Shown in pieces: positions 8,334 through 26,083 of a DNA stretch of 38,789 nucleotides. How positions within the stretch are numbered: position 1 is the stretch's first letter; the number at the start of each line of letters is the position of its first letter. The stretch covers positions 1 through 38,789 of IMG/VR virus record IMGVR_UViG_3300031985_000014, one strand, 5' to 3'. Under the pieces are notes generated by a model. It ran no database searches. It had not been told where the DNA came from and saw only the letters and a list, made by a program, of their open reading frames with translations. The position numbers were made by a program, and so were the translations under genes. This stretch comes from a virus.

Positions 8334-8344
8334 GGCGGCAGCTC

Positions 8345-9163
8345 CTAAGCGAAGGACATTGCCAGGCTGACCTGGTTCAGCGCGACGGCGGTTGTGTCGG
8401 CGTCGGCCGCAGCCCCGGTGATCGCGTAGGCGATTCCGGTTGCGAAGCTGACCCCGACGCTATTTCCGATGCCAAAATCAACGGACTGACCGGCAGGGAT
8501 GCCGAAGACGAGAACGGGGACGTCGGTGCCCACCGTTGGTGCCGATGCCTTGTTGTAAAACTTCAGGAAGGCCGCGCCCGCTCCGGAGTTGAAGGCCCGT
8601 CCGCCGTACAGGGTCCCTGCAGTAGCCTTGAGGCTCGTTGCGTTGGTAGTGGCGGCCGAAATATGCTTGGCTGGAGTGGCCCCGCCCACGGCCTTGCCGG
8701 AAACGCCGACAATGCCGGTGCGGGCAGACCCCTGGGTGGACCGGCCGCAGGCAATCATCATCGTGCCGGAGGTGTAGGCGGTTGAGCGCACACGGATCTT
8801 CGCAAATCCGGCCACTCCGAACTCCCAGGCCAGGGCGGTGCTGGAAAGCGTACCGGAGGCCGTGGCGAATGTGGCCGCGTCCGTCTGGGCGCCCGCGATG
8901 GCGAACCAGTTCGTTTCGTCGATGGTGGCCTCAAAGGCGATGGCGACCGAGCTGTAAGTCCCGGTTGCGGCGATGACAGCGGTCACGGCATCGACTACGA
9001 CGAACTCGACGGTCTGCCCGTTGCCGGTGATCTGCCCGGTCAGGACGGCCAGGGGGTTGACGTTGGCGATGGCCTGGATCTGCTCCGTGTCGGGTCCGTC
9101 CACACGCTGGAAGGTCATGACCTTGGCGTTGCCGAGGCTGCTCGGCAGTGTGATGTTGCTCAT
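8345..9163 (-). CDS. Virion structural protein downstream of the tape measure
   Basis: 272 residues, beta-rich and low in charge. The first half includes ITGNGQTVEFVVVDAVTAV and GTYSSVAIAFEATIDETNWF, which look like a beta-sandwich (an Ig-like or cell-surface-binding fold). The second half (LKATAGTLYGGRAFNSGAGAAFLKFYNK... VPVLVFGIPAGQSVDFGIGNSVGVSFATGIAYAITG) is another all-beta domain. I do not recognise a family with certainty. ATG 9163 overlaps the tape measure stop as ATGA, so the two are probably co-translated. It may be a tail-tip decoration protein. Confidence 0.6.
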   Translation of the reverse strand: MSNITLPSSLGNAKVMTFQRVDGPDTEQIQAIANVNPLAVLTGQITGNGQTVEFVVVDAVTAVIAATGTYSSVAIAFEATIDETNWFAIAGAQTDAATFATASGTLSSTALAWEFGVAGFAKIRVRSTAYTSGTMMIACGRSTQGSARTGIVGVSGKAVGGATPAKHISAATTNATSLKATAGTLYGGRAFNSGAGAAFLKFYNKASAPTVGTDVPVLVFGIPAGQSVDFGIGNSVGVSFATGIAYAITGAAADADTTAVALNQVSLAMSFA

Positions 9164-11139: not shown

Positions 11140-11157
11140 GCTCGTTCGCCTTGCCTT

Positions 11158-11277
11158 TCAGTTGATGTGCCATGCCGGGGCCGTTGTCGCCGGGGCCTTG
11201 CTCTGCCAATACACCGGGGCCTGGATTTTCCCGGCCCTTTTCGCGGCCGTGTTCCTGACTGCCTGGAACGGCATCAT
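11158..11277 (-). CDS. 39-residue small protein between chaperone and tape measure
   Basis: An ATG overlapping the stop of the GT frame (ATGA) opens a frame of 39 basic residues beginning MMPFQAVRNTAAKRAGKI and ending HIN, with strongly G/C-ending codons like its neighbours. It fills the 134-base gap before the tape measure gene, whose own ribosome site lies at its end. A gene at this place would be made with the tail chaperones. No family is recognised, and the opposite strand also has an open frame here, so confidence is moderate. Confidence 0.5.
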   Translation of the reverse strand: MMPFQAVRNTAAKRAGKIQAPVYWQSKAPATTAPAWHIN

Positions 11278-11603
11278 TTAGCCCGAGCCCGATACACCCT
11301 GAGCGCCTCCGCCTCCATCGCCCGGCAGTCCATGAACGCCTGCTTGCGATCGTCCACGCCCAGCATGTCCATCACGCTGGCCAGGGCCGGATAATCCAGG
11401 CCCATGACCACTCCGTTCATGCCGTCCACCCTCCACTGGGTGTTCATGGCCAGAAACACTTCCAGGCTCAGGGCGCATTCCGGCCACACCTCGTAGGGCT
11501 CCGGGTCCGGGACCTCCAGGACGATGCCCAGGGTTCTGGCGTTGGCCCGGGCCTCGACCATGTCGCCAGGGCCTTCCAGCAGGTGCCGGACGGCCCCGGT
11601 CAG
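11274..11603 (-). CDS. Tail assembly chaperone T-domain, read by -1 frameshift (GT-like)
   Basis: This frame carries a DUF1799-like segment (EPYEVWPECALSLEVFLAMNTQWRVDGMNGVVMGLDYPALASVMDMLGV). It has no obvious ribosome site of its own. The upstream chaperone gene ends in AGA AAA AAC TGA, containing the classic slippery heptamer A AAA AAC. A one-base backward slip there reads straight into this frame without a stop, giving a fusion of about 219 residues. In lambda and many siphophages the equivalent GT protein binds tape measure and recruits tube subunits. An independent start at ATG 11561 is possible but weak. Confidence 0.82.
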   Translation of the reverse strand: MTGAVRHLLEGPGDMVEARANARTLGIVLEVPDPEPYEVWPECALSLEVFLAMNTQWRVDGMNGVVMGLDYPALASVMDMLGVDDRKQAFMDCRAMEAEALRVYRARAK

Positions 11604-11932
11604 TTTTTTCTGCGGCCTTCTGGCGTGTGAGCTTCCATGAAAGCCCGGGTCAGGGCCGGCAAGACCGGCCAGACCGAAAGCAGGCGCTCCAGGTTCTCGG
11701 CCGAAAACGGCAGAGCTGACCCGGCTTCATCCTCGACGCCGCGCCAGCCGAGCAGGTGCTGGCGCATGAGATCCAAATCCTTTGTAGCAGCGCCAATGGC
11801 GGTGATTCCGTCCATGGTCAAGCGCCGAAAGCGGGCCTCGAATTCGTGTTTCTGGGGCTGCCCGCCATCGTCTAGGATCTCGACCTGGACCGGGTACCAG
11901 AACGCCTCGGATTGACCAATGCTAAGGGGCAT
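11600..11932 (-). CDS. Tail assembly chaperone (lambda G-like)
   Basis: 110 residues starting at ATG 11932. Sequence PVQVEILDDGGQPQKHEFEARFRRLTMDGITAIG is the typical start of a tail chaperone, which coats the tape measure protein before the tube polymerises. It lies between the tail tube and tape measure genes, the invariant place of lambda G. The last codons form the slippery site at 11603-11609 used to make the longer GT fusion. The unshifted product ends in EGRRKN. Confidence 0.85.
   Translation of the reverse strand: MPLSIGQSEAFWYPVQVEILDDGGQPQKHEFEARFRRLTMDGITAIGAATKDLDLMRQHLLGWRGVEDEAGSALPFSAENLERLLSVWPVLPALTRAFMEAHTPEGRRKN
11603..11609 (-). promoter_or_regulatory. -1 ribosomal frameshift site (A AAA AAC)
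   Basis: On the minus strand the codons AGA AAA AAC precede the TGA stop. The heptamer A AAA AAC is phased exactly as required for a -1 slip, and the -1 frame is open for a further 109 codons. Its place at the end of the G-like gene is the well-known location of programmed frameshifting in tail chaperone genes. Confidence 0.85.
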
Positions 11933-11940
11933 GCGATCTC

Positions 11941-12903
11941 CTATTTGACGATGATGAGCAGTTCGTCGTTGCCGCTGACGGGGATGAAGCGCACGTCCAC
12001 GGACACGCCCAGACGCCCCTGAGACTCCTCGTATTGCGGTCGCCCGAACTGCGCCGCCGGCGCGTAGAGCTGCACGATCTGACCCGCTCCAGCGCCGTGT
12101 TTGATGCCCAGTGCCCTGGTGGTCACGGTCTTGGCGTCGTTGAACATGGTCGCCTCAGTGGCGGCCGACAGCAGCAGCTTCAGGTTGCCCCTGGTTTCGC
12201 GGTTCGTGATGTCAACCACGGAGGAACCCAGCATGGGCACGAACTCGACGGCCTGGCCCAGCTCGACCTGTGCGCTGATGGACGGCAGGGCCGTGCCGCC
12301 GGTAACGGCTCCGGCCGCATAGGCGCAATCGATGAGGATGTCCCCCGTGTTGGCGGCGGCCACGGGCAAGGGCGCCCGCCAGGCCGTCATGGACACGCCC
12401 GTTGGCTGGGCCAAGGCTGCCGGGTCGAGGTGGACCACGCCGGACAACGAAAAACTGATGCTTGGCTTGGACCCGGGCGCGATGTTCAGGGTGGCCGTGC
12501 CGCGCACCCCTTTGAGGCGGTGCGTGACGCCGTCGGCCGCGTACAGGATGCTGAGCGACTCCAGGCCGGTCGAAACCGGGTTGTAGACCACGTGCGCGCC
12601 GGCGGACACGGTCTCGGCCATGGCGCAGGCCCGCAACAACCTACCCCAGGCGGGGGCCGTGCCGGCGGTGCCGGAACCGGCCATTTCCACCGTGAATTCG
12701 ATGTTCACAGGGCTGTCGCCGATGAGCTGTTCCGACGCGCCGAAATACGGGCGCAGCAAATCGCGTTCGACGATCCTGTCGTCATACCTGATGGACGCGT
12801 CGCTGATCAGCAGGGCGTCCGTGGCCGGCGCTGGGGCCAGATAGGTGCCGGGAGTTGTCTCGACCTTGGCCAGAATGACCAAGTTCCGGTAATATCTACT
12901 CAT
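11941..12903 (-). CDS. Major tail tube protein
   Basis: 320 residues. The N-terminus (NLVILAKVETTPGTYLAPAPATDALLISDASIRYDD) and the later FTVEMAGSGTAGTAPAWGRLLRACAMAE, SFSLSGVV and C-terminal GVSVDVRFIPV segments match the phage tail tube family common in siphophages of proteobacteria. It polymerises into the hollow tail tube. ATG 12903 has GGAGGCGG ahead of it, and the start overlaps the end of the 44-residue gene. Its size is within the usual range for this family. Neighbours (head genes upstream, chaperones downstream) agree. Confidence 0.9.
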   Translation of the reverse strand: MSRYYRNLVILAKVETTPGTYLAPAPATDALLISDASIRYDDRIVERDLLRPYFGASEQLIGDSPVNIEFTVEMAGSGTAGTAPAWGRLLRACAMAETVSAGAHVVYNPVSTGLESLSILYAADGVTHRLKGVRGTATLNIAPGSKPSISFSLSGVVHLDPAALAQPTGVSMTAWRAPLPVAAANTGDILIDCAYAAGAVTGGTALPSISAQVELGQAVEFVPMLGSSVVDITNRETRGNLKLLLSAATEATMFNDAKTVTTRALGIKHGAGAGQIVQLYAPAAQFGRPQYEESQGRLGVSVDVRFIPVSGNDELLIIVK

Positions 12904-13030
12904 TGTCCGCCTCCTTGGGCTCCGTCACGGTTTCAGCCAGCGCGGGCCCTACAGGCTGTTCCGCCCTGGACAGCTCGCCATTCTCGGTCAAGATGTAGCT
13001 GCCGCCAGACTGGGGTAGCTGGTCGGTCAT
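12896..13030 (-). CDS. 44-residue small virion-region protein
   Basis: ATG 13030 overlaps the stop of the upstream gene (ATGA) and the frame ends at TAG 12896-12898, inside the start of the tail tube gene. The product begins MTDQLPQSGGSYILTENGEL and is acidic toward its end. Small proteins with a GGSY motif are often encoded just before phage tail or head proteins, but their function is unknown. The overlaps on both sides and the GC-rich third positions support a real gene. Confidence 0.7.
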   Translation of the reverse strand: MTDQLPQSGGSYILTENGELSRAEQPVGPALAETVTEPKEADNE

Positions 13031-13203
13031 CTCTTTTTCCTCCCGCGCGGTTTTCGCGTCTCGGCCGAATCGGATTCGGCTTGTTCTGCGACTTGCTCTC
13101 GATCAAGATCAGGCCCGGCCATGGCGTCAGCAACAGGGGCGGCCGAAGCCGCCGCCTGTTTTTCTTGTTCGCGCCGTATGCGGTTAAACGCCGCCAATCC
13201 CAT
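13027..13203 (-). CDS. 58-residue basic protein between capsid and tail tube genes
   Basis: MGLAAFNRIRREQEKQAAAS is followed by an acidic stretch and a very basic end (RKPRGRKKR). ATG 13203 is preferred over an upstream start because of GAGGTG seven bases ahead. Small proteins with this helical start and basic tail are common directly downstream of major capsid genes. A head-tail joining or DNA-contacting role is possible but not shown. Confidence 0.65.
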   Translation of the reverse strand: MGLAAFNRIRREQEKQAAASAAPVADAMAGPDLDREQVAEQAESDSAETRKPRGRKKR

Positions 13204-13211
13204 TATACACC

Positions 13212-14183
13212 TCACGCCAGCTTGTGCCGGAAGGCCACGACGCGGATCTGTTTCGGATCGTAGACGCGGGTCCAGTTCGTGCCCGTGGCCAGTTCGGCGC
13301 GGGTCGGATGTCCGGACGCGACGTCACCGGTGGACACAACGGCAGAGCCGACCCACTTCACGCCACGCGGATGCAGCACAAAGTGTCTCCGGTTGATGAG
13401 GATGTCCTCACCGGCCAGGCTGTCGCGGTCGGTTTCCGTCGACACCCTGGGCGAGCCCTCGGCATACCCGAACGCGCCGGGTCCAAAGAGATAGGTCGTG
13501 TACACTGCGCCGGAGACGGGCAGGCCATCATCCACAATGATGCGCTTGCCCTGGTACGTGGCGAAGGCCGCGCCATCCGCGCCCTTGGCCGTATCCAGCA
13601 GGTCGTCCTTGTAGAGCTTCTGAAGGGTGGCGCTGTGCATGGCCACGGAGGTCAACCCGCCGGACGCGTCGCCCAGCTTGAACATGGCATCGGCGAAGGA
13701 GTTCTTGTCGATCACGGCCAGCGCCCCAGCCAGTCCGGAGATGTTGTGAACGTTGCCGCTCATGCTGGCGGCCGCAAATACGCCTTCTAGGGTTTTGAGC
13801 AGGCGCTTCTGCATAACCCTGGCCCACCAGGTCGCCACCAGGTCGCCAATGGCGGCCATAGGGTCAGCGCCGGCCAGGGCTCCGGCCAGGTCATTGGCGC
13901 CCCACGCCTTGCCAATGGCCTGCAACACGGCAACATCCTGCGTGGCCGTGATGGCGGACACGGTCAGAGCCTTCAATGCAGACAGCTCTTCTTCGTCTCC
14001 AGTCAGGTCGTTCCAAAACGGCATGTTGATCGTCTCGCCACCGGAACGGGAGCCAATCTCCACGCGACCGTCATTGACAACGATCCCGGCCGCCCACAGG
14101 GCGGAAAGTTCCGCGCTGCGGTTGATCAAATAGGGGTTGAAGACTTCCGGTACAATGACGTCGGAAATTTTAGTGCTAGGCAT
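13212..14183 (-). CDS. Major capsid protein
   Basis: 323 residues. Start MPSTKISDVIVPEVFNPYL with NMPFWNDLTGDEE, VMQKRLLKTLEGVF, FKLGDASGGLTSVAMHSATLQKLYK, and near the end SLAGEDILINRRHFVLHPRGVKW mark a well-known HK97-fold capsid family of siphophages and prophages. It forms the icosahedral shell. GAGGTATGTC stands ahead of the ATG. A separate scaffold gene lies directly upstream, so no N-terminal delta domain is needed, in agreement with the short N-terminus. Confidence 0.93.
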   Translation of the reverse strand: MPSTKISDVIVPEVFNPYLINRSAELSALWAAGIVVNDGRVEIGSRSGGETINMPFWNDLTGDEEELSALKALTVSAITATQDVAVLQAIGKAWGANDLAGALAGADPMAAIGDLVATWWARVMQKRLLKTLEGVFAAASMSGNVHNISGLAGALAVIDKNSFADAMFKLGDASGGLTSVAMHSATLQKLYKDDLLDTAKGADGAAFATYQGKRIIVDDGLPVSGAVYTTYLFGPGAFGYAEGSPRVSTETDRDSLAGEDILINRRHFVLHPRGVKWVGSAVVSTGDVASGHPTRAELATGTNWTRVYDPKQIRVVAFRHKLA

Positions 14184-14997: not shown

Positions 14998-16326
14998 ATG
15001 ATAGACCGCAAACGACTTGCCCTTGTTCGGGACGCCCTTGAAGGCATCAATGGATTTCGACCCATGGTGACGCTGGGCGCAGACGGAAAGCCGCTGAAGA
15101 CAATCGGCCCCACGCACCTCGTTCCGTTCCCGCGCGAAAGCCAAGAGAAGTTCGCGGGCAGAAACCATGTCGCATGGCACACGACGGACCTCATGGATGC
15201 CTGCGAGCGCTTCGCGGGCTACCTCGCGACAAAGACGCCGGAGCGCGGCGGCCTTGAACACGAGCTGCTCAAGACCATGGCTGACGACCTGGACGGCATG
15301 GGGAATAATCAAGATGTATTTTGGTCTGCCTTCACGGTGCAGGCCAAGGCGCGAGGCACCATGTTTCTGCTGGTGGACATGGACCCACTGGAGGTCGGCA
15401 CCATGGCTGATCAAATCGCACGACGGATGGTCCCGAGCTGCACCATGATCTCGCCAGAGGATGTCGACGACTTCCAAGTGGGGCCAGACGGCAAGATTGA
15501 TTGGATTGAGTTTGACAGGTCCATGCGCCTCGACGGGAAATACACCCGCGTCACCTGGCGTTTCGACCGCTCCGGATGGTCCGCCAGAAAGGGCGAGGAT
15601 ATTCTTGTCAGCGGCGAGCACCCGTGCGGCGAATGCCCTGTGCTCATTTTCACGGAATCAGGGCGGTTTCCCTGCTATGGGCAGTTCTCGCAGCTCGCGG
15701 ACCTGTCCCACAGGCTCTTCAACGCGCGTTCCGAGCTGGACGAAATCCTCCGCAGCCAGACCTATTCCATTTTGGCCTACCCACGCCCTGACAACCAGGC
15801 CGTGGACATTGATCAGATCGTCGCCACCGTGGGCACGTCGAACATGCTCGAATACTACGGGTCGAACGCCCCGGAATACGTGGCCCCGCCCAACGGCCCG
15901 GCCGATACGTATTTCAGACTCATAGAATATCTGGAAGCCAAGATCAAAACAGTGAGCCTCAACGTCGAGAGCCCGGACCAACTGGAAAGCGGCCTCGCCT
16001 TGCAGATGCGGTTCCAGGCCCTAAACGCGGCTCTGTCCAAGTGGGCGGGGCGCATGGAGGATCTGGAGCTGCGCATGTGGACACTGGCCGTGCGATGGCT
16101 GGGCATGACCGACGCCATGATTCCGGAAATCAGATGGCATCGCAACTATATGCTCGCCGACGTGGGCGCGGAAATTTCCATCTTGCAGCAGATGCAGGCG
16201 GGCGGGATGCCCCGGAAGGCGACCGCCGCGCAGATGAAGCGGATCACCTCCATCCAGTTCGGCGGCCTGGACCAGAACCGGCTGGACGAGATCACGGCGG
16301 AAATCGACGAGATAGAGGCCGAGTGA
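14998..16326 (+). CDS. Portal protein (DUF4055-like)
   Basis: 442 residues. The region LEHELLKTMADDLDGMGNNQDVFWSAFTVQAKARGTMFLLVDM, the YTRVTWRFDRSGW segment, and QLADLSHRLFNARSELDEILRSQTYSILAYP with the C-terminal helical part fit the DUF4055 family of phage portal proteins. The portal is the dodecameric ring through which DNA enters and leaves the head. ATG 14998 is the first possible start after an in-frame TGA at 14968-14970; its ribosome site is weak. It is transcribed opposite to terminase, scaffold and capsid genes, which is unusual. Confidence 0.85.
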   Translation: MIDRKRLALVRDALEGINGFRPMVTLGADGKPLKTIGPTHLVPFPRESQEKFAGRNHVAWHTTDLMDACERFAGYLATKTPERGGLEHELLKTMADDLDGMGNNQDVFWSAFTVQAKARGTMFLLVDMDPLEVGTMADQIARRMVPSCTMISPEDVDDFQVGPDGKIDWIEFDRSMRLDGKYTRVTWRFDRSGWSARKGEDILVSGEHPCGECPVLIFTESGRFPCYGQFSQLADLSHRLFNARSELDEILRSQTYSILAYPRPDNQAVDIDQIVATVGTSNMLEYYGSNAPEYVAPPNGPADTYFRLIEYLEAKIKTVSLNVESPDQLESGLALQMRFQALNAALSKWAGRMEDLELRMWTLAVRWLGMTDAMIPEIRWHRNYMLADVGAEISILQQMQAGGMPRKATAAQMKRITSIQFGGLDQNRLDEITAEIDEIEAE

Positions 16327-16481
16327 TGGATGATAAGACACCTGGAATTGCCGCGCTGTTCTTATTAGCTGTCGCGGAACTTGTGTATTGTTTCTACGCG
16401 GACGCCACGCCGATGCACACCGGAACCATTGTCGGCGCGATCGCTGGGTTTGTAACAGGATCTGTAATTCAGAATAGATAA
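16326..16481 (+). CDS. 51-residue membrane protein with two transmembrane helices
   Basis: The ATG overlaps the last base of the portal stop (TGATG). Two hydrophobic segments (GIAALFLLAVAELVYCFYA and GTIVGAIAGFVTGSVI) are joined by a short loop, with a charged N-terminus MDDK. Such two-helix small proteins can be holins or anti-holins, but the lysis genes are elsewhere in this genome (26080-26879), so the role here is unclear. No family is recognised. Confidence 0.65.
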   Translation: MDDKTPGIAALFLLAVAELVYCFYADATPMHTGTIVGAIAGFVTGSVIQNR

Positions 16482-16492
16482 GGAGATCTATC

Positions 16493-16870
16493 ATGCCTTT
16501 TTTACACGACAGAGTTTACGACAATGGTCTGACTGTCCTCGATACCGAGGCCAATGCGTTGCACATTTGCAACTTGGAACCTTCAACTTTTGCCTCGGCC
16601 ACGACGACAAACAGCCTGGGTAACAAAGCCTTGGCCGCTGGCGGGATTGGTGCTCCTGGGGCCGGCACTCCGAATGGCCGACAGGTGACGGTAGCGGCTA
16701 TCACTGACGGGTCTGTAACGGGGACGGGGACGGCATCACATTGGGCGATTGTGGACACGGCCAACTCTCGGCTACTGGCCACAAACGCGCTGTCCGCGAC
16801 GCAGGCCGTGACGTCTGGTAACGTGTTCACCTTGGGTTCGTTCACGATTCGTATCCCGGCTCCGGCGTAA
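16493..16870 (+). CDS. Head-associated virion protein
   Basis: 125 residues with a strong AAGGAG before the ATG. MPFLHDRVYDNGLTVLDTEANALHICNLEPSTFASA and the NSLGNKAL motif are characteristic of a small virion protein found next to portal genes in many phages, presumably a decoration or connector protein. The end (NVFTLGSFTIRIPAPA) is a beta strand-rich tail. The function is not established; the call follows pattern and position. Confidence 0.65.
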   Translation: MPFLHDRVYDNGLTVLDTEANALHICNLEPSTFASATTTNSLGNKALAAGGIGAPGAGTPNGRQVTVAAITDGSVTGTGTASHWAIVDTANSRLLATNALSATQAVTSGNVFTLGSFTIRIPAPA

Positions 16871-16873
16871 GTC

Positions 16874-17131
16874 ATGGGCTGTGCGACAGCGGAGCCAATC
16901 GTATGGGTGCTGCGATTTGGGCCGCAGCATCGTCAATGGGGCGACCCCTGGTCGTTTACCGTTACGTGTACCGCCTGTGGCGAGACAGCTTATTTGCATG
17001 CGGGCCAGGGGGCGATTCCTCCCAGTGCAATGCGTGCCCTGGCAGAGGTGCTGCGCGGCCTGGGATTCAAGCAGGCTGCGTGGCATCGCAGAAAAAGTGG
17101 ACAGGCCGTGACGGTCTGCCGCGACCTGTAA
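16874..17131 (+). CDS. 85-residue protein with a CxxC motif
   Basis: The protein MGCATAEPIVWVLRFGPQHRQW contains TCTACGETAYLHAG (one CxxC pair) and ends in a basic segment with a further Cys (SGQAVTVCRDL). The two pairs of Cys could bind a metal. ATG 16874 lies three bases after the preceding stop without a clear ribosome site, so coupling to the upstream gene is likely. It belongs to the portal operon; its function is unknown. Confidence 0.55.
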   Translation: MGCATAEPIVWVLRFGPQHRQWGDPWSFTVTCTACGETAYLHAGQGAIPPSAMRALAEVLRGLGFKQAAWHRRKSGQAVTVCRDL

Positions 17132-17145
17132 TAATTGGAGGAAGC

Positions 17146-17985
17146 ATGGCAATCACGACTCGCGATCAGCTCATCAACGCAATGGGCAACAACTATTCGC
17201 AGGTTTTTGTTGACAAAGCTACAATCTCGTCCCAGGCGGCGGCGACGCACGTTTCCCTGTGGCGTGCTACTGGTCAGCCAGGGCAGGGGGCCATCCCTGC
17301 TGCCGCCGCGCGGTGCACGCATGCACTGACCGGGGCTATCGGGTTTACACAACAGACGCTCCCGGCGACGTCGTATCTGGGGCATCTTGAGGGGATGTGT
17401 GGTAACGCCGGGACCACACTGGAAGTGCATGATCGCATCATGCATATGGGCGGACTCAATGGAACGCTAACGACAGCACAAACCGTTGCCATTGACTTGT
17501 CTGCAAACCTCGGGAGCGATAATGTTGCCGCGCGCATCGGGGCAAGCAACTATTCGAACGTGGCGTGGTGGCTGGAGTGGTACTCGGCCACGGGCGGAAC
17601 TGCCGTCACGGCCACTATTAACGTGACGTACAACGATGCGACAACAGGCGACCTTTCTGCTGTATCGCTTGCGGCTACCCGGCCAGCGTCCTTTATGCAG
17701 TTGCTCAATGCCTTTACCCCGGCGGCGGCTTCGGGAAAGTTTATCCGCCACGTTAACACCGTAACCTTGTCCGCAACGACCGGCACTGCCGGATCGTTTG
17801 GCGTGACTGCGACCCGGCAACTCGCTGTCATGTACAAACCGCTAGCCAACGTCCGATTTGTTTCTGACTGGGCGAGTGTGGGCTTGGCCGAAGTGCCAAA
17901 TTCGGCCTGTCTGATGCTCATCCAGATTGCTGGCACTACGTCTACTGGTATTGTCCGGGCATCGGGCAAGATCCTGCACGGGTGA
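17146..17985 (+). CDS. Virion structural protein
   Basis: 279 residues starting at ATG 17146 behind GGAGGA. It opens with MAITTRDQLINAMGNNYSQVFVDKATI and is rich in Ala, Thr and beta-forming residues, with a stretch TPAAASGKFIRHVNTVTLSATTGTAGSFGVTATRQLAV near the end. This kind of protein is found between head and fibre genes in related phages. A neck, decoration or fibre-base role is likely, but no family function is known to me. It immediately precedes the large adhesin. Confidence 0.6.
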   Translation: MAITTRDQLINAMGNNYSQVFVDKATISSQAAATHVSLWRATGQPGQGAIPAAAARCTHALTGAIGFTQQTLPATSYLGHLEGMCGNAGTTLEVHDRIMHMGGLNGTLTTAQTVAIDLSANLGSDNVAARIGASNYSNVAWWLEWYSATGGTAVTATINVTYNDATTGDLSAVSLAATRPASFMQLLNAFTPAAASGKFIRHVNTVTLSATTGTAGSFGVTATRQLAVMYKPLANVRFVSDWASVGLAEVPNSACLMLIQIAGTTSTGIVRASGKILHG

Positions 17986-17990
17986 TGTAG

Positions 17991-20837
17991 GTGTCGACCC
18001 GATTTTCACAGCACGACCTGCCCAGCAGCTTACTTGGGCGGCTGTCTGGCGCGTCCTTGGTCTGGGATCGCCCTGCCGGGCCGTTGCTGTGGATTGAGTT
18101 TGCACCATTTTCTAATCACACGCTGACGGCTCAGTCGCTGGAGGCTGGTGTTCCGGCCATCGGGACTCCAGCCATCGGTCAGACCCATACTTTGACGGCT
18201 CAGTCGCTGGAGGCTGGTGTTCCGTCTCTTGGGGGCCCGGCCCTGGAACAGGCTTCCGCATTGACAGGCGTGAGTCTGGAGACAGGTTCTGTTGTTCTTG
18301 GTGTGCCGGTATTTCAAAATACCGGCATACCTATAACGCAGACGGAGCTGATCAGCTCCGGCGGGTATGTCAATCTGGGGCAGCCTGCTGTAATTAACAA
18401 CTTAGTCGCTCGTACGTATATGTACTATGGGCGACCAACGTCTGTACAAAACCCTGGACAGATTTGCATTAAGGCGGATGCGACGTCTTCTGGCGGGCCT
18501 CGTTTTCAGATTTCTTCATCGAACAATAACGCACAAATTATAACGCCGACCAACGCCAGCATTCTAAGTCCTTCGTTTCGCAGTGCAACAAACAGCCTAA
18601 CGTTCAGTACGTGGGTCAACTTCGCCGCGTCGTGGGACGGCGTCACTGCCATCAATACAACAGGAAAAATATACAAAGATGGCGTGTTGGAAACGGCCCC
18701 AGAAGTTTCTGCTGGTTCGTCTCCATACCACACCGGCGCTGGACATGACTTCTGGTTGTTTAATCGGGTTGGCCAGGACCGTACTACGCTCGGGAGTCAT
18801 GCATATGTTGTAGTTTGGAATCGTGTACTGTCCGACGCCGAAGTAGCTGCTGCTGTAGCTAATGGTCCGCTGAGCATTTCTAGTGGACTTGTTTTATGTT
18901 GGGCCAATGGACAGGACTATGGTCCGAACAACATAACTCCGGTTGCCCGGAGCACGTTTGCGGCGGGCTTACTTCCGCCGCGAACGGGGCTTGGCGTTTA
19001 CTCGCCAGCAAGTCATACGTTGTCTGCCCAGCCACTGGTAGCTGGCAATCCGGTCCTGGGTGCCCCTGCCTTGAACCAAGCATCGTCCTTGGTCGCCCAG
19101 TCGCTGGAGGCTGGTGTTCCGGCCCTCGGGACTCCGGCCCTCGGTCAGGTCCATGCGCTGACGGCCCAGTCGCTGGAGACCGGTGTTCCGACTCTCGGGA
19201 CTCCGGCTCTTGGCGTTACGCACTCACTTGTCTTAATTGTGGCGGGCGACTCTCATAACGCGCACCCCACAAATTCGACAATTACAAATCCTGAAGCAGC
19301 AAGTCCTGTCGTTAATGTTGCGGTTCGGGTGATTTATGCTGGGTGGCGGCAGTTTCTTTTCCAGATAACTGGAGCATCTGGCAAGCGTCCTCTGTTCAGG
19401 ATCATCAACCCCAGTGACCACGTCAATGGTGTATTCCGCACTTCTTGGCGGCCTTGGTACAGCTATGATGGACTGACCTGGGTGCAGTTTGATGCTGCGC
19501 CTATCGACAACACGACAACATGGGATTTCCAGTTGTCCACGGCTTTTACTGGCGATGCTGTCTTTGTTGCATATCAACCGGCATGGCCGTTGTCTCGCAC
19601 GCCATGGCTAATTGGCCAGCTACAAGCTCTTGGCGCAAGCCGCGTGCATCAGTTGCCGTCGGCTCCGAATTTTGAATATCCGACGTTGATTTCAAATCAA
19701 ATTGATGAGCTTGGGCAGACTGTCCCTGGTCAGAAGATGTACGCTTTCGGCCTTTGGGACGACACCCTGCAGCCTCTTGACGGCTTGGCGAAACGTCTTG
19801 CTGTTATCATTGGCGGTTGTCACGCTGGCGAGCATGTCGGTTCTTGGGCAATGGAGGGCTTCCTGCGCTTTTTGCTCGGGGGGTCGGCCCAAGCAACAAC
19901 GTTGCTACGAAACTTCCGCTTCCTGGTTTACCCCTGCGTCAACCCGATGGGCCGGATCATGGGCCACTATCGGGGACAACGCCAGGCAGGCAATTTTACA
20001 CTTGACCCAAACCGAGACTGGCCTGAGGACAATTCCGCTTCTATTTTTCAGTCTACGCAATTTTTCCGGGCCATGTTGGCCACGGACATGGATGGTCGGG
20101 ACGCTGCTGTTTGCCTAGACTTCCATGCGACGTGGGGAACAGCCACTGCGTTCTATTATGCTAACAACGCTGACCCAAACGCATTGTATCTAGCCGAATG
20201 GGACAGCCGGGTTAAGACCTATTCGTCTTTTGCCGTACAGTACACGACAACCGCAACGATGCTGGTATCTGGCATTTCAAGAGTCTACGGGCCTCATCAC
20301 TGTTACATACCAGAATCTTATGAGTCTAGCGCCTTTCCTGGCGGCATTTCCGATGTTCTTGGCGTTGGGGTTGTTTTTGCAAGGGCGCTGGCGGACACGC
20401 CGCTTACAGAACTTCGGTTGCCCTTGGAGGAGCATTCCTTATCTGCCGCGCCGCTGACAGCTGGCGCTCCAGTTCTTGGGGCTCCGGCCCTGGGTCAGAC
20501 TCATGCCCTGACGGCTCAGTCATTGGTGGCTGGTGCTCCGGTTCTCGAGACTCCGGCCCTGGGCCAGATTCACGCTTTGGCGGCTCAGTCATTGACGGCT
20601 GGTGCTCCGGTTCTCGGGACTCCGGCCCTGGGCCAGGTTCATGCGTTAACGGCCCAGCCACTGGTGGCGGGCGCTCCGGTCCTCGGGACTCCAGCCCTAG
20701 GGATGTTGCCGCCCATCAACCCCGATGACATTCGGGGATTCGTGGTCGCCAAGCCACGCCGCGTCCTGTATAGTGGAGACCTCCGCGTGACCTCTTCCAT
20801 TGCACCCAACCGCAAAAGGACCGTGATCCATGCTTGA
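17991..20837 (+). CDS. Large adhesin with 23-residue repeats and a CCP-like zinc carboxypeptidase domain
   Basis: 948 residues, GTG start. Ten copies of a 23-residue repeat (HALTAQSLxAGxPxLGTPAL...) occur in three clusters: residues 43-111, 342-410 and 815-906. Between clusters 1 and 2 is a lectin-like beta domain (LamG/concanavalin type, with WDGVTAINTTGKIYKDGVL). Between clusters 2 and 3 is an M14 carboxypeptidase of the cytosolic (CCP) type: a beta domain with FRIINPSD and WYSYDGLTWVQF, then His611 and Glu614 (HAGEH), Asn651, DPNRDW (Asn674, Arg675), His712 (LDFHAT) and Glu775/778 (PESYESS). It could trim peptides on the host surface during adsorption (inferred). Base composition is visibly more AT-rich in the middle domains than in the neighbours. 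Confidence 0.85.
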   Translation: MSTRFSQHDLPSSLLGRLSGASLVWDRPAGPLLWIEFAPFSNHTLTAQSLEAGVPAIGTPAIGQTHTLTAQSLEAGVPSLGGPALEQASALTGVSLETGSVVLGVPVFQNTGIPITQTELISSGGYVNLGQPAVINNLVARTYMYYGRPTSVQNPGQICIKADATSSGGPRFQISSSNNNAQIITPTNASILSPSFRSATNSLTFSTWVNFAASWDGVTAINTTGKIYKDGVLETAPEVSAGSSPYHTGAGHDFWLFNRVGQDRTTLGSHAYVVVWNRVLSDAEVAAAVANGPLSISSGLVLCWANGQDYGPNNITPVARSTFAAGLLPPRTGLGVYSPASHTLSAQPLVAGNPVLGAPALNQASSLVAQSLEAGVPALGTPALGQVHALTAQSLETGVPTLGTPALGVTHSLVLIVAGDSHNAHPTNSTITNPEAASPVVNVAVRVIYAGWRQFLFQITGASGKRPLFRIINPSDHVNGVFRTSWRPWYSYDGLTWVQFDAAPIDNTTTWDFQLSTAFTGDAVFVAYQPAWPLSRTPWLIGQLQALGASRVHQLPSAPNFEYPTLISNQIDELGQTVPGQKMYAFGLWDDTLQPLDGLAKRLAVIIGGCHAGEHVGSWAMEGFLRFLLGGSAQATTLLRNFRFLVYPCVNPMGRIMGHYRGQRQAGNFTLDPNRDWPEDNSASIFQSTQFFRAMLATDMDGRDAAVCLDFHATWGTATAFYYANNADPNALYLAEWDSRVKTYSSFAVQYTTTATMLVSGISRVYGPHHCYIPESYESSAFPGGISDVLGVGVVFARALADTPLTELRLPLEEHSLSAAPLTAGAPVLGAPALGQTHALTAQSLVAGAPVLETPALGQIHALAAQSLTAGAPVLGTPALGQVHALTAQPLVAGAPVLGTPALGMLPPINPDDIRGFVVAKPRRVLYSGDLRVTSSIAPNRKRTVIHA
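18117..18323 (+). repeat. Repeat cluster 1: three 69-bp units
   Basis: Three tandem 69-bp units encode 23-residue repeats; the first two are nearly identical (starting at 18117 and 18186) and the third, from 18255, is degenerate. This cluster precedes the lectin-like domain. Confidence 0.85.
19014..19220 (+). repeat. Repeat cluster 2: three 69-bp units
   Basis: Three further 69-bp units starting at 19014 lie between the lectin-like and carboxypeptidase domains of the adhesin. Spacing remains exactly 23 codons, and the second and third units closely resemble cluster 1. Confidence 0.85.
20433..20708 (+). repeat. Repeat cluster 3: four 69-bp units
   Basis: Four tandem 69-bp units from 20433, the most uniform of the three clusters, follow the carboxypeptidase domain and end just before a 42-residue basic C-terminal segment. 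Confidence 0.85.
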
Positions 20838-21117
20838 CCCCAAGACCCCGCGCGAAGCCTACCCAGTTGAGTTCGACTTTTCCCGCCTCTTGACCTCCAT
20901 CACGGCGGCGTCCGTGTCGGCTCACCTCCTGGCCGGAACAGATGCCGCCCCCTCCTCGATTTTGTCCGGGACGGCCCAGATCTATGGCTCGAAGGTCTTC
21001 CAAGCCCTGACCGGCGGCATGGATGGGGCCAAGTACGGCTTGCTTTGCCAAGCCTCGGACGGGGTACGGGTCTTTGAGCTTGCGGCCTCCATCGAAGTCA
21101 GGGAGCCCATGCCGTGA
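20830..21117 (+). CDS. Fibre-tail or head-tail adaptor-like protein
   Basis: 95 residues. DPKTPREAYPVEFDFSRLLT... ITAASVSAH... SKVFQALTGGMDGAKYGLLCQASDGVRVFELAASIEV is a short all-beta protein of the type annotated as a phage fibre-tail adaptor, with a conserved YxVxFDFS start and a C-terminal beta module. The ATG overlaps the adhesin end by eight bases, so the two are co-translated; this supports a role in attaching the adhesin to the particle. The adaptor role is inferred from the family name and position. Confidence 0.65.
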   Translation: MLDPKTPREAYPVEFDFSRLLTSITAASVSAHLLAGTDAAPSSILSGTAQIYGSKVFQALTGGMDGAKYGLLCQASDGVRVFELAASIEVREPMP

Positions 21118-21554
21118 TCACCGTCACCGTCCATGGCGTCGAGCAGGTCGCGCAGCGCCTACAGGATGTTCCAAAAAATCTCGCCCACGGCGTGATCCTG
21201 GAAATGTCCCAGGTTGTCTTCGACCACATGCAGGCCGGTGCGGATCGACACACCAAGACAGGCGCCCTGTTCCAGAGCGTCTACAACCGGGCCATCCCCG
21301 GTGGGCGCGAGGTCGGACACGACCAGGATCGCGCCCCGCATGCTCTGTTCGTGGTCTGGGGGGCCAAGCCGCACAAAATCAAACCACTGAACAAAAAATC
21401 CTTACGCTGGTCTGGCCCGGGCGGGTTCATCTTCGCCCGGTTCGCCAACCACCCAGGATACAAGGGCGACAACTACATGCAGCGGGCGGCTGACGAGGCC
21501 ATCCGTCGCATGCCGGAAATTGTCGCCAGACACACAAAAAAGGAGACCGTCTGA
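21114..21554 (+). CDS. HK97 gp10-like head-tail connector
   Basis: 146 residues, starting at GTG 21114 overlapping the preceding stop as GTGA. ITVTVHGVEQVAQRLQDVPKNLAHGVILEMSQVVFDHMQAGADRHTKTGALFQSVYNR matches the HK97 gp10 family, a connector component between head and tail. The C-terminus has a HPGYKGDNYMQRAADEAIRRMPEIVARH helix, also typical. It would seat in the head-to-tail joint with the tail terminator encoded two genes downstream. Confidence 0.8.
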   Translation: MITVTVHGVEQVAQRLQDVPKNLAHGVILEMSQVVFDHMQAGADRHTKTGALFQSVYNRAIPGGREVGHDQDRAPHALFVVWGAKPHKIKPLNKKSLRWSGPGGFIFARFANHPGYKGDNYMQRAADEAIRRMPEIVARHTKKETV

Positions 21555-21865
21555 TGCCGACCACAAACACCTATCATGACGCTTACCTTGTCAAACACTG
21601 CACACAAGTGCGCGAGGAGCGAGCCTATGACGACGTGGACGCCCTGGGGACATTCTCCGCGCAATGGCGCGACAAGCTGGCCGTATTGCGCTGCTTCGTC
21701 ATTGTTTGCCTGGAGTGCCAGTCGGAGCCGGATGACCTCTACGGCGCAAAGCTCAAGCACTACCGCACGGAGTTCGAAACACTGTTGACACAGGCCAGGG
21801 CCGCCACGCCGGACGCCAATGGCAACCCGCGCCCTTTCCTGTCCAGACCCATTGCGAGGGGTTAA
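21554..21865 (+). CDS. Conserved phage protein in the connector region
   Basis: 103 residues. The ATG overlaps the stop of the gp10-like gene (TGATG). The core AVLRCFVIVCLECQSEPDDLYGAKLKHYRTEFETLLTQARAATPD suggests a helical bundle. Proteins of this kind lie in this place in related phages without a known role. It may be a connector or head-closure component, given its neighbours. Confidence 0.55.
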   Translation: MPTTNTYHDAYLVKHCTQVREERAYDDVDALGTFSAQWRDKLAVLRCFVIVCLECQSEPDDLYGAKLKHYRTEFETLLTQARAATPDANGNPRPFLSRPIARG

Positions 21866-22264
21866 ATGTCAAAGATCATGACCAGGCTGGAAGAACTGCG
21901 TGACGTCCTGGCCGCAATTCCCAGCGTGTCCACCTGCAAGGTCGGGCTAGAGCACGGCATCTCTCCGGGCGACTACCCGCTGATCCGCATCGTGCCGAGC
22001 GTGGTTACAGACGGCCCGACAATCTCCAGGAAACAATGCGACGTCTGGATTTATTTCGGAGCCGAGGCCAAGGAGGTGGACGCAGAAGCCGACGCGGACG
22101 GCCGGGTAGGCCTTGAAAAGGTCTACGCGGCTTTGTTCGATCTGGAAGGCCTGATTCGCGACGCCGTCCACGCCAATGGCGGGATCTGCCGCGACACGGT
22201 GACGGACGAAGACCGCCTGAGCGCGTATAAGCTCATGGCGATCAAGGCCGTGGTGGAAGGCTGA
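21866..22264 (+). CDS. Tail terminator-like protein
   Basis: 132 residues. MTRLEELRDVLAAIPSVSTCKVGLEHGISPGDYPLIRIVPSVV... DVWIYFGAEAKEVD... GLEKVYAALFDLEGLIRDAVHANGG has the layout of small tail terminator (gpU-like) proteins that cap the tail tube after assembly. ATG 21866 directly follows the previous stop. It is the last gene of the plus-strand block; 50 bases later the minus-strand genes begin to end. Identification is by size, pattern and position. Confidence 0.65.
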   Translation: MSKIMTRLEELRDVLAAIPSVSTCKVGLEHGISPGDYPLIRIVPSVVTDGPTISRKQCDVWIYFGAEAKEVDAEADADGRVGLEKVYAALFDLEGLIRDAVHANGGICRDTVTDEDRLSAYKLMAIKAVVEG

Positions 22265-22314: not shown

Positions 22315-22524
22315 CTAGGCGGTTTTGCGGAGAGGCTCGGAGAGCAGCGCGATTTCGTGCGGCTCGCAGCTCACGGCAATCCAATCATTGCCTTCATCAA
22401 GCATAAACTCGACCTCGTATCCAGCAGGCCGAGAATAGACATCAATGATTGTCCCTTTTGCACCCTTCTTTACTCGGCCTTCATCCAGGTCGCTCAGTGC
22501 GATAACTATGTCATGTTCTTTCAT
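22315..22524 (-). CDS. DUF4926 protein, possible immunity or antitoxin partner
   Basis: 69 residues. MKEHDIVIALSDLDEGRVKKGAKGTIIDVYSRPAGYEVEFMLDEGNDWIAVSCEPHEIALL is a clear DUF4926, an SH3/KOW-like small fold. ATG 22524 overlaps the end of the head protein gene by 14 bases, so translation is coupled. DUF4926 genes very often follow DUF6883 genes in bacterial genomes, and the upstream protein here ends in a DUF6883-like domain. A neutralising role for that domain is inferred. Confidence 0.75.
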   Translation of the reverse strand: MKEHDIVIALSDLDEGRVKKGAKGTIIDVYSRPAGYEVEFMLDEGNDWIAVSCEPHEIALLSEPLRKTA

Positions 22525-24013
22525 TTCTTTTCCCACGCAAAAACGCTGTTACTAGTCGCGGTCTGTCAGATCCATGGTCATATTGCCACGTTGTGCTAAT
22601 ATTTTCAACATGAGCATTTCTCCCAGTGATGGCAAGTTCAACATCAAATTTCTTGCCCCACTTCGTTTCTCGCTCGCGCGCGACTATCCCCCTGGGCAGA
22701 GCGTCTACCAGGGCGCTCGCAAGATAGGCAACATCTGCGTCGCTGTCCGTCAGCCCAAACGCAGCGGACAAGACACGGGCCTTATGCCGGCCTTCTTCAT
22801 TCTCAAAACTTAAAACATAACCACGAATCTTGCTTGTCGGCGGAATTGGGTTGTCCACATTCGGCATCACATCCCTGGCTAGTTTCTGGTCGCTCATCGC
22901 CACCACTCCTAGCCCAGGAGCGCCATCCCTGGCAACGTCCCCTACCAGACGCACCCGGTACATGGGATCGGAGTTCGAGTTCCAAACGGCCAGCGGATCG
23001 GCTCCGTTCAAAACGGCGTCCCGCCGCGCCTTGCTGCCCATGACGCGGGCCGCCTCGTCCTTGCCGACGGACCGCAGGTAGGCCCGTTCAGATCCAGGAC
23101 GCAGGCGGGACTTGGCGTCCGCCGAAATGTCCAGCCTGGGGCTCACGACACATCGGCAATGCGGGTGACAAGGGGCCTTTGGCGCCTTGGCCTTTGGGTA
23201 CACGCCCGGCCCAAGCCCGTACTTGTCCTGCTTCGCCCATAGGTCGCAGATGTCCATGCGTGGATGCGTGACGCTCAAGCGATACTGCACCCAGACGATG
23301 TCAGGATCGTTCATCAGCTCCGTGGCCTGGCGGTCGGCGTAGGCCCGGTGCAGCTCGGTCTGAGCAATACGGTTCGCGAAATAGCGCATGCGCTCGTGGA
23401 AGGCCACCCGCATGCGTTTGCGTAGCAGTTCCTGGCCGGCTCCGGCCTGAATTCCGCCCAGAAATTCCAGATATGCGGCCTTGAGGGCCGGGGTTTTGAG
23501 CTTCGAGGCCTGGACATTGGCGAAATGCCGGGCCAGCTCGCCTGTGATGCCCGGATCGGTCAGCAGCTCCTGCCGCAGATACTTGGGCAGCCGGGCGTTG
23601 CTGCGAGTGACGCGCAGCGGTTCGCGGTCCCTGAACCCGTATCCCTCGTACAACTCCAATGTCAGCTTGCGTGCGTCCTGCCAGCCCTTGATGTGCCGGT
23701 TGACGATCCCGGTCACAACCTGGCCCGTCTCGCGTGACTGCCGGTAGAGGCGGGCAGACAGGGCCACGCCGGAAATCGTCATGGCCAGCACCGAGGACGA
23801 GCCCACGGAGCGCCCCAGAATGCCCGTGAATGCCGTGGCTAGCGTCTCGGCATACTGGCCCTGGAACGTGGCCAGCACGGCAGCCACGGCGTCACGCGGG
23901 GCCTCTCCCTCACTCATGAGCCGGAGCAACTCCGCATAGGCCGCATCCAGCTCCTGGGCGATGCCCAGGGCCACGGCGTCGAGCAGCGCCCGCTCTTGTG
24001 CCGGCGTTATCAT
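22511..24013 (-). CDS. Mu F-like minor head protein with C-terminal DUF6883-like domain
   Basis: 500 residues. Residues ~1-295 are a phage head morphogenesis protein of the Mu gpF/SPP1 gp7 type: YFANRIAQTELHRAYADRQ, then VTHPRMDICDLWAKQDKYGLGPGVYP and HPHCRCVVSP near 283-292. Residues ~394-492 form a separate domain resembling DUF6883: GYVLSFENEEGRHKARVLS, WGKKFDVEL, TTWQY and RPRLVTAF (484-491). Head proteins of this class are injected with DNA in several phages and sometimes carry effector domains ('polyvalent' head proteins). The overlap of its start with terL and of its end with the DUF4926 gene shows a tight operon. A nuclease-like activity of the extra domain is an inference. Confidence 0.85.
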   Translation of the reverse strand: MITPAQERALLDAVALGIAQELDAAYAELLRLMSEGEAPRDAVAAVLATFQGQYAETLATAFTGILGRSVGSSSVLAMTISGVALSARLYRQSRETGQVVTGIVNRHIKGWQDARKLTLELYEGYGFRDREPLRVTRSNARLPKYLRQELLTDPGITGELARHFANVQASKLKTPALKAAYLEFLGGIQAGAGQELLRKRMRVAFHERMRYFANRIAQTELHRAYADRQATELMNDPDIVWVQYRLSVTHPRMDICDLWAKQDKYGLGPGVYPKAKAPKAPCHPHCRCVVSPRLDISADAKSRLRPGSERAYLRSVGKDEAARVMGSKARRDAVLNGADPLAVWNSNSDPMYRVRLVGDVARDGAPGLGVVAMSDQKLARDVMPNVDNPIPPTSKIRGYVLSFENEEGRHKARVLSAAFGLTDSDADVAYLASALVDALPRGIVARERETKWGKKFDVELAITGRNAHVENISTTWQYDHGSDRPRLVTAFLRGKRNERT

Positions 24014-25206
24014 AGGCCCGGTATCCTGTGCGTCATGCGCGCGGGGATAATCTTGTCGAGCGAATTGAAGGCATGGGCCGCCGCGTCCACGCCGTCGTCG
24101 TGCTGGCCCTCTGGAAACGACAGCAACTCGTCCCGGAACCAGGCCGGGACCCTGGCCGGGTCATGGCGCACCTGGCGTTGCTCGTAGCGGGTCAGCAGCG
24201 GCATGAAGCGGGTCAGCTTGTCCTTGTCCGGCTTGATGCCGCGCACGGGGAGCCGCGTTGTCCTGATCAGCTCCTGAATCACGGCGGCCTGATACTGGGC
24301 TTGTTCAATGGCGATGAGGCGCGGATTGTGGCGCGCGGCCGCGTCCTTGATCCTGGACAACACGTCATGGAAGGCGCAGCGGTGGCGTTCAGCCTCCAGA
24401 ACGTGAACAATGCCCGATTGCGGATCACGGCACAGGGCCACGATGGCCGTAAAGTCCGCGCTCTGCTTCTCGGATATGGCCAGATCCACGCCAAGGACCA
24501 CGGGCAGCCCCGTCGGCGCCGTTCCGGTCTGGACCATGTCCGGCTTGACCAGGCCGGCGCCAAAGGTCACGAACTCGGCCAGGTATTCCTGACGGAAGAC
24601 CAGTTCCGGCAACTCGGCCCGGTACCGCTCCACTTCGTCGGCGCTGATGTGCGGGTTGACCGTGGTCGGCATGTGCCAGGACTGCCAGTCCGGCTCGCCT
24701 TGCACGCCGCGCTGATAGAGTTCGTGGAAAAAATTAAGGCCCTTGGGCGTGGAAATGAACCAGGCGTGCCCCTTGAGGTCGGTCAGTGTCGGCGAAATGG
24801 CCCGCTCCCAAGCCTCCCGCAGATATCGGGCATGGGCCGCCTCATCGATGACAAGCCGGGCGTATTTGCGGCCACGGCCAGCGTCAGGGTCTTCCAGGGT
24901 CCAAAAGTCGACCTTGCCCCCGGTGATGAGTTCGATTCGCATTTCCGCCTTGTTGGCCTTGCGCGTCACTGGCTTCAAGGCGCGCTCCATGTCGGTCCAC
25001 ACGTCCAGCAAGAGCTTGTAGGTGGGGGCGAAGAAGGCCACCGGAGCGCCGTCAAGCGCTCCGCCAGGCAAGAGCGACAACCATTCCACCGACAGCATCG
25101 TTTTACCGAACCGGCGACCAGCCGACACCACGCGAAAGCGACTGGACCCGTTCAAGATGGCTTGCTGCCCAGGGTGCAAGGCGAACGGCGGAACGACGAT
25201 TTTCAT
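24010..25206 (-). CDS. terL: Terminase large subunit
   Basis: 398 residues. The ATPase part shows Walker A SAGRRFGKT (28-36) and Walker B ARLVIDEA (116-123). The nuclease part has Asp241 (LGVDLAISE), Glu301 (IAIEQAQYQ) and Asp371/374 (HDDGVDAAAH), the usual RNase H-like set. It pumps DNA into the prohead and cuts it at packaging. The ATG overlaps the terS stop, and its stop overlaps the head protein start. The small size matches the compact terminases of lambdoid-like prophages in Gram-negative hosts. Confidence 0.94.
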   Translation of the reverse strand: MKIVVPPFALHPGQQAILNGSSRFRVVSAGRRFGKTMLSVEWLSLLPGGALDGAPVAFFAPTYKLLLDVWTDMERALKPVTRKANKAEMRIELITGGKVDFWTLEDPDAGRGRKYARLVIDEAAHARYLREAWERAISPTLTDLKGHAWFISTPKGLNFFHELYQRGVQGEPDWQSWHMPTTVNPHISADEVERYRAELPELVFRQEYLAEFVTFGAGLVKPDMVQTGTAPTGLPVVLGVDLAISEKQSADFTAIVALCRDPQSGIVHVLEAERHRCAFHDVLSRIKDAAARHNPRLIAIEQAQYQAAVIQELIRTTRLPVRGIKPDKDKLTRFMPLLTRYEQRQVRHDPARVPAWFRDELLSFPEGQHDDGVDAAAHAFNSLDKIIPARMTHRIPGL

Positions 25207-25673
25207 TTGGACCCATAGCCGCGATCAATGACCACGACACTTTCCGGGGCATCGTCTAGCCCATGCGCTGCCCGCTCTGCCTTCTGGCGGATAGCCAGCA
25301 TCTCTGCGCAAATTTTGGCGGACTTGCCCAGGTCGAAATCATTGGCCACGCCGTGGACCGTGAACCTGTTGTGGTGTTCCTCCCAGTCCCGCCGGTGACG
25401 AACGATGATGGCCGCGCCCTTTTCTGCTTCGGCAGTGATGGCCTCGGCCTTCTTTTTCGGGTCGCAGGGTGCGACCAAGCCCGCGACCTTCTCTGCGACT
25501 TTGCGCCGCACGGTCTGACCGACATCCAGCCCGTCGCCCCAGCCTTCAGATTCGATCCGCTTTTGGATGGCCTTACGCGACACTCCGAACTTTTCCGCCA
25601 GAGCGGAGATAGTTGCCCCCGTCTCTCGTTCGGCGCGGACGGTCCCCCATGTGTCAGATGTCAATCGCGGCAT
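25203..25673 (-). CDS. terS: Terminase small subunit-like DNA-binding protein
   Basis: 156 residues. A helix-turn-helix of resolvase/HTH_29 type at residues ~15-45 (TGATISALAEKFGVSRKAIQKRIESEGW) is followed by a helical part, as in many terminase small subunits. It sits immediately upstream of terL with overlapping stop and start. ATG 25673 is used because it overlaps the stop of the DUF1353 gene (TAATG); a longer start 34 codons upstream would lie inside that gene. It should recognise the pac or cos site and bring terL to it. Confidence 0.82.
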   Translation of the reverse strand: MPRLTSDTWGTVRAERETGATISALAEKFGVSRKAIQKRIESEGWGDGLDVGQTVRRKVAEKVAGLVAPCDPKKKAEAITAEAEKGAAIIVRHRRDWEEHHNRFTVHGVANDFDLGKSAKICAEMLAIRQKAERAAHGLDDAPESVVVIDRGYGSK

Positions 25674-26083
25674 TATCGCTCCATTATTTCGCGATAGGCG
25701 TCGGCATCCCGGCAGTTGTTCCAGGCCCCCCAGGCTCCGACGCGGACGCCTGCCCACATGGCCCACCGCTGCCACCTTGGGACACCGAGTCCTGCCATTG
25801 CGTCAAGAAACAAGTCATCGGCCTGCTTGCGGGAGATGGGCGCGTCGTTGACCATGCCGATCTTATAAAGATAGTCATGGAGCAGGGATGCCTTATTGTA
25901 TTTTCCGAATGGCGGAAAGACGTTCCACAGCCCCCTGGGCACGCTGGCCCCGTCCGTCAGAAACCCGTCCGGGATGACGAGAGTCTGGCCGTCGAAGGAA
26001 ACCACGACGTCGTTGAGCAAGCGGCGTGTCCTGCCGGACGGCAGGTCGCAATAGTGGGGCTCGGTTTTGAACTCAACCCTCAT
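25673..26083 (-). CDS. DUF1353 family phage protein
   Basis: 136 residues. VIPDGFLTDGASVPRGLWNVFPPFGKYNKASLLHDYLYKIG and RKQADDLFLDAMAGLGVPRWQRWAMWAGVRVGAWGAW are hallmarks of DUF1353 (DGASVP and the HDYLY motif). The family is frequent near lysis and terminase genes of phages; its function is unknown. ATG 26083 overlaps the stop of the muramidase gene as ATGA. The conserved His and Asp could bind a metal or catalyse a reaction, which remains unproven. Confidence 0.85.
   Translation of the reverse strand: MRVEFKTEPHYCDLPSGRTRRLLNDVVVSFDGQTLVIPDGFLTDGASVPRGLWNVFPPFGKYNKASLLHDYLYKIGMVNDAPISRKQADDLFLDAMAGLGVPRWQRWAMWAGVRVGAWGAWNNCRDADAYREIMER

Follow-up and report, generated by a model that had tools for sequence, protein, structure and literature searches.

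The window, by which we mean the whole stretch of DNA analysed here (an IMG/VR record of 38,789 bases), encodes an integrase, an exonuclease, RecT, a terminase, a capsid protein, a tape measure protein and a J-like tail-tip protein. The tape measure gene and the tail genes identify the phage as a siphovirus of the NrS-1-like type, and the relatives of its exonuclease and tail-tip protein point to a host among the Proteobacteria. Portal, neck and two more genes are on the + strand, and the remaining head and tail genes are on the opposite strand, so that the block running from portal to neck (14998-22264, +) is inverted relative to 9160-14183 and 22511-25775 (both -). We considered an invertible segment around this block and rejected it, because the inverted repeats were only of the grade expected by chance. 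The inverted block and the gene order are common to the window, Nitratiruptor phage NrS-1 and ctgwJ031; the inversion is a stable trait.

Between the portal and neck genes the window has an interval of about 4.6 kb that contains genes for a gp80-family protein, a 360-aa open reading frame (ORF), a fibre and a gp77-like protein (Table 1). This cassette is an insertion at the portal/neck junction that is missing from NrS-1 and ctgwJ031. The possibility that the 360-aa ORF codes for a second capsid protein was unsupported; the capsid gene lies elsewhere, on the - strand. The fibre ORF is intact (948 codons, with a GTG start), and its LTAQ repeats comprise ten units of exactly 23 aa each, in arrays of three, three and four placed on either side of the LamG domain and of the peptidase. 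The basic C-terminal tail is a possible anchor. G+C content is 0.54-0.59 over the fibre gene, compared to about 0.6-0.66 across most other parts of the head and tail region, which is in line with acquisition of the gene without proving it.

Table 1. Features of the fibre locus and of the surrounding head and tail genes in the window.
Feature	Position	Strand	Basis
J-like tail-tip protein	4379-7063	-	
Capsid gene	13212-14183	-	product ~50% identical to SPP1 capsid protein
Portal protein; left border of insertion	14998..16326	+	phrog_145 1.2e-35; synteny with NrS-1
gp80-family small fibre protein, 125 aa; first cassette gene	16493..16870	+	homologous to PF23140 members
360-aa ORF without a family match; actual start possibly further in	16903..17985	+	
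Fibre gene, 948 aa: repeats, LamG, repeats, CCP-type M14, repeats, basic C-terminal tail	17991..20837	+	intact ORF; Pfam
First 23-aa repeat array (units at aa 45, 68, 91)	18117..18323	+	
LamG (concanavalin A-like) domain, aa 124-286	18360..18848	+	Laminin_G_3 PF13385 1.3e-9
Second 23-aa repeat array (units at aa 344, 367, 390)	19014..19223	+	
Probable CCP-type N-terminal beta domain, ~aa 412-540	19224..19610	+	PF18027 below cut-off; fold match covers both domains
M14 catalytic domain, aa 571-811	19701..20423	+	PF00246 1.2e-12; Foldseek to CCPs
Zinc motif HAGE, H611 and E614	19821..19832	+	alignments
R661, equivalent of CPA Arg127	19971..19973	+	invariant in three alignments
N674-R675, equivalents of CPA Asn144/Arg145	20010..20015	+	alignments; roles from PMC3940198
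H712, predicted third zinc ligand	20124..20126	+	alignments
E775, probable catalytic Glu (CPA Glu270)	20313..20315	+	invariant column in three alignments
Third 23-aa repeat array (units at aa 817, 840, 863, 886)	20433..20711	+	
Basic C-terminal tail, aa 908-948	20712..20834	+	sequence
Putative gp77-like fibre-tail adaptor, 95 aa	20830..21117	+	PF23148 E=2.5e-4, below cut-off
Neck1 / tail completion protein; borders the insertion on the right	21114..21554	+	phrog_5 5.3e-7; synteny

A sequence-only reading of the fibre gene had described its product as a phage adhesin with an embedded M14 metallopeptidase resembling cytosolic carboxypeptidases (CCPs), an identity that profile, PDB and fold searches all bear out. 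The Pfam match to Peptidase_M14 at aa 571-683 scores 48.5 bits against a cut-off of 21.6, well past what chance would give. The model for the CCP N-terminal domain, PF18027, matches aa 455-528 with an E-value of 0.0067 in the window and 0.0021 when the domain is searched in isolation, both below cut-off; it scores 6.4e-6 in another member of the family, and the fold alignment spans the corresponding region. Among PDB sequences the best matches are CCPs (3k2k, 1.2e-7; 4b6z, 7.6e-7), with CCP5 also matched, and each of the six matches that a profile search of the PDB gave at E<=0.001 is a CCP or a bacterial protein of CCP-like type.

For structure prediction we gave AlphaFold2 a ten-member alignment of the phage domains. 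The model of the window domain is moderate (pLDDT 68, pTM 0.76), with 92 residues below 50, including the DPNR segment, and the model of its relative from contig L014 is better (pLDDT 81, pTM 0.80). In Foldseek comparisons, CCPs fill the first 15 places for the window model, with E-values from 1e-14 to 3e-18, followed by the next M14 class at 1e-7; they also fill the first 14 places for the L014 model. In both cases the gap in E-value between CCPs and other M14 enzymes is six to seven orders of magnitude. The models and the sequence matches support assignment of the peptidase unit, with its catalytic domain and probable beta domain, to the CCP type (M14D).

The residues named in the earlier reading are all where it placed them, in HAGEH at 611, LDFHAT at 709 (with H712), DPNRDW at 672 and YIPESYES at 772 (with E775 and E778), and the beta-domain motifs that it named are present too, FRIINPSD at 469 and WYSYDGLTW at 489. 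The window domain has the complete M14 residue set, consisting of HxxE with a third His, the catalytic Glu, and the equivalents of Arg127 and Asn144/Arg145. By transferring the residue roles known for BcCCP (PMC3940198) through alignment, we predict that H611, E614 and H712 are the zinc ligands, R661, which we add to the residues of the earlier reading, the oxyanion Arg, and N674/R675 the carboxylate clamp. The earlier proposal of Glu775/778 can be narrowed: both residues are present, and E775 fits the catalytic Glu better, occupying that column in three of four alignments as against the full-length alignment alone for E778. The catalytic domain is under purifying selection, both between the window and its relative L002 (pN 0.14, pS 0.79, with synonymous sites saturated) and between L014 and L022 (dN 0.094, dS 0.50).

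We searched for relatives in IMG/VR and in one genome from each of 84,980 species, and found them in 15 further viral contigs, some of them near-identical, and in one Burkholderiales MAG. For this Burkholderiales carrier, no second phage-type copy was found at E 1e-20 in the 398 phylum and 300 order genomes sampled. We aligned the window domain with nine further distinct domains. The L002 fibre is 65% identical overall to the window fibre and has the same HxxE motif, whereas eight of the ten aligned domains (those of L004, L007, L009, L010, L011, L014, L022 and L030) have HxxxE, in the form HAAGE or HSAGE, which is one residue longer than the HxxE of M14 enzymes. The HAAGE/HSAGE domains retain DPNR and the downstream Glu. 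In L030 (9917-12016) an Asn takes the place of the third zinc His; L027, a close relative of L030 (97.6% identity over the compared stretch), retains this His. Thus the zinc residues have not been lost throughout the homologues: L002 has all of them, and in the others they persist with an altered spacing, apart from one His. At E 0.01 Pfam detects M14 in only three of the ten domains, and PHROGs in none. Because Pfam and PHROGs miss most of the relatives, the family is larger than annotation shows.

The surroundings of the peptidase vary. The order LamG, repeats, M14 is fused in a single protein in L002, L004, L014 and L022, whose phage backbones differ, and the LamG domain is kept across six members. 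In L007 it is encoded by the gene before the peptidase gene, and L010, L030, L009 and L011 have a different N-terminal part or a different preceding protein. L050 (2719-4119) encodes a LamG protein that belongs to this family and carries different repeats and no peptidase; the peptidase therefore seems to be an optional module. In a protein encoded on a Persicobacter plasmid (L053, 1-2517), a long N-terminal part precedes a CCP unit in which both the HAGE motif and the residues around it resemble those in the window. A search of 50,697 phage-isolate records for the M14 domain gave no match apart from one to the LTAQ repeats, in Octadecabacter Antarctic DB virus 2 (L015). The matching gene (7065-8591) has LTAQ-type repeats and is annotated 'ribonuclease E'; it is two genes on from a homologue of the gp80-family gene in the window, and is more likely to encode a misannotated fibre protein.

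The genes on either side of the fibre recur as well. In the window and most related contigs the fibre is flanked by relatives of gp80 (PF23140) and probable relatives of the gp77 adaptor (PF23148) of podophage GP4, although the window phage is a siphovirus and its fibre is not a GP4 protein. The gp80 family is above cut-off in six of the eight relatives' contigs, and in five it is located directly upstream of the fibre or within about 1.7 kb. In G004 it is some 15 kb from the fibre, and therefore outside such a cassette. L002 has a divergent gp80 homologue immediately upstream of its fibre gene; in the window another divergent homologue is separated from the fibre by one gene, and this copy matched no Pfam model directly and has 23-57% identity to aligned homologues; a profile built from the window's family matches PDB 8jou_a (2.9e-4). 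Five contigs have a gp77-like gene after the fibre, scoring above cut-off in three relatives and below it in L009 and in the window, whose protein scores 21-22 bits against a PF23148 cut-off of 27.

The closest known systems by both sequence and fold are the bacterial CCPs (MEROPS M14D; BcCCP 4b6z, BmCCP 3k2k, PaCCP 4a37), which share the zinc and catalytic residues and, probably, the two-domain layout. In contrast to these free-standing enzymes, the window unit is embedded between phage-fibre repeat arrays; the fold alignment shows about 16-17% identity, and most of its phage relatives carry HxxxE. M14 domains in phage proteins have a precedent: a zinc carboxypeptidase (M14-fold) domain in Clostridium phage phiCP24R was reported as then new to viruses (PMC9234517). 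Unlike the window fibre, it is listed among the lytic domains of a Gram-positive phage (PMC9234517). It matches the fold of the HAAGE-type model weakly (TM 0.40 of query); when viral models were searched by fold with the L014-type model, a few weak matches came up, and no sequence match was found in phage records. PghP/PghL are likewise phage-derived zinc enzymes with a carboxypeptidase-like fold and a surface-polymer substrate, but belong to another family, with other substrate residues and HxxxxE spacing (PMC6506827). Our literature search on M14 or zinc carboxypeptidase tail fibres found no direct precedent apart from the mention of phiCP24R, and in the phage records and literature that we searched we did not find lectin-type fibres that bear a CCP-type unit and are accompanied by a GP4-like cassette in several lineages.

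From these features we infer the virion location, activity, substrate and entry role of the fibre peptidase. The reading to which we give about an even chance is that it is a fibre-type virion protein whose CCP-type peptidase would act, as the phage adsorbs, on some peptide or protein at the host surface. The fibre would probably be attached near the portal/neck (to the neck or connector) via the GP4-like cassette, with the 23-aa repeats serving as rods or spacers that carry the peptidase. When the phage meets its host, the LamG domain would grip a surface glycan and hold the fibre in place, and the peptidase would cut C-terminal residues off a peptide-bearing surface component, such as a protein tail or a poly-glutamate-like polymer, so as to expose or free the receptor. 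Because the phage has its own J-like tail-tip protein, the fibre would be an accessory. The gp80/gp77 cassette and its recurrence in differing phages strengthen the virion-fibre part of the earlier reading. The reading as a whole is tempered by the HxxxE motif of most relatives and the one missing His, and by the previous report of an M14 domain in phiCP24R.

The HxxxE motif and the missing His would suit an M14 domain that only binds, as a former peptidase turned into a scaffold for receptor recognition on the fibre. Since eight of the ten domains have HxxxE, and one has exchanged a third-ligand His for Asn, some members may only bind; in addition, confidence in the L014 model falls below 50 at residues 204-206, which are the zinc motif in its HAAGE form. 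We nevertheless regard this explanation as unlikely, because the window and L002 have all the catalytic residues at normal HxxE spacing and the HAAGE form is itself conserved alongside DPNR and the downstream Glu. Altered spacing need not abolish activity, since the ligands of PghL are HxxxxE and the phage gamma-PGA hydrolases are active despite this (PMC6506827).

An active enzyme might also have other targets. It could open a peptide-containing barrier on the surface, made of a poly-gamma-glutamate-like polymer or the peptide of peptidoglycan, rather than trim a receptor, which we consider improbable. The two-domain CCP layout differs, to our knowledge, from that of peptidoglycan-active M14 enzymes, which counts against this idea, and the window has no Pfam match to the PghP family at E 0.1. 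On the other hand, PghP is a phage zinc enzyme akin to carboxypeptidase A that is thought to clear gamma-PGA (PMC4497714, PMC6506827), and CCPs are tied to glutamate removal, with an S1' site in bacterial CCPs that suits an acidic residue (PMC3940198). R764, which only alignment places close to the S1' position, hints that the substrate may end in an acidic residue, but the HAAGE group lacks this Arg. Moreover, BcCCP cleaves a furylacryloyl-glutamate substrate poorly (PMC3940198), and the exopeptidase set Arg127/Asn144/Arg145 is kept in the window domain but replaced in PghL (PMC6506827). Processing of the phage's own structural proteins during assembly, with no use on the host, would suit a gene that sits amid head and neck genes. 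It appears very improbable, given that the peptidase is fused to LamG and repeats and moves with fibre genes among differing phage backbones, and that NrS-1 and ctgwJ031, which have the same head genes, lack it.

Extended to the whole family, our reading of a peptidase acting on the host surface becomes that of a transferable fibre module, in which a CCP-type peptidase, in most cases with the derived HxxxE motif, would edit protein C-termini on the host surface as phages of several lineages adsorb; we put this forward tentatively and with some doubt.

Virion enzymes known to open the host surface mostly have polysaccharide or peptidoglycan targets. A lectin-type fibre that carries a carboxypeptidase of the CCP type would mark protein C-termini or peptide-bearing polymers as targets in adsorption and, if the reading is true, would represent a class of enzyme-carrying adhesins directed at protein, not sugar. 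The substrates of bacterial-type CCPs are not known (PMC3940198), and action on the host surface would give these enzymes one concrete role. The features of the fibre gene and its relatives suggest that some phages may trim peptide ends on the surface of their hosts at attachment.
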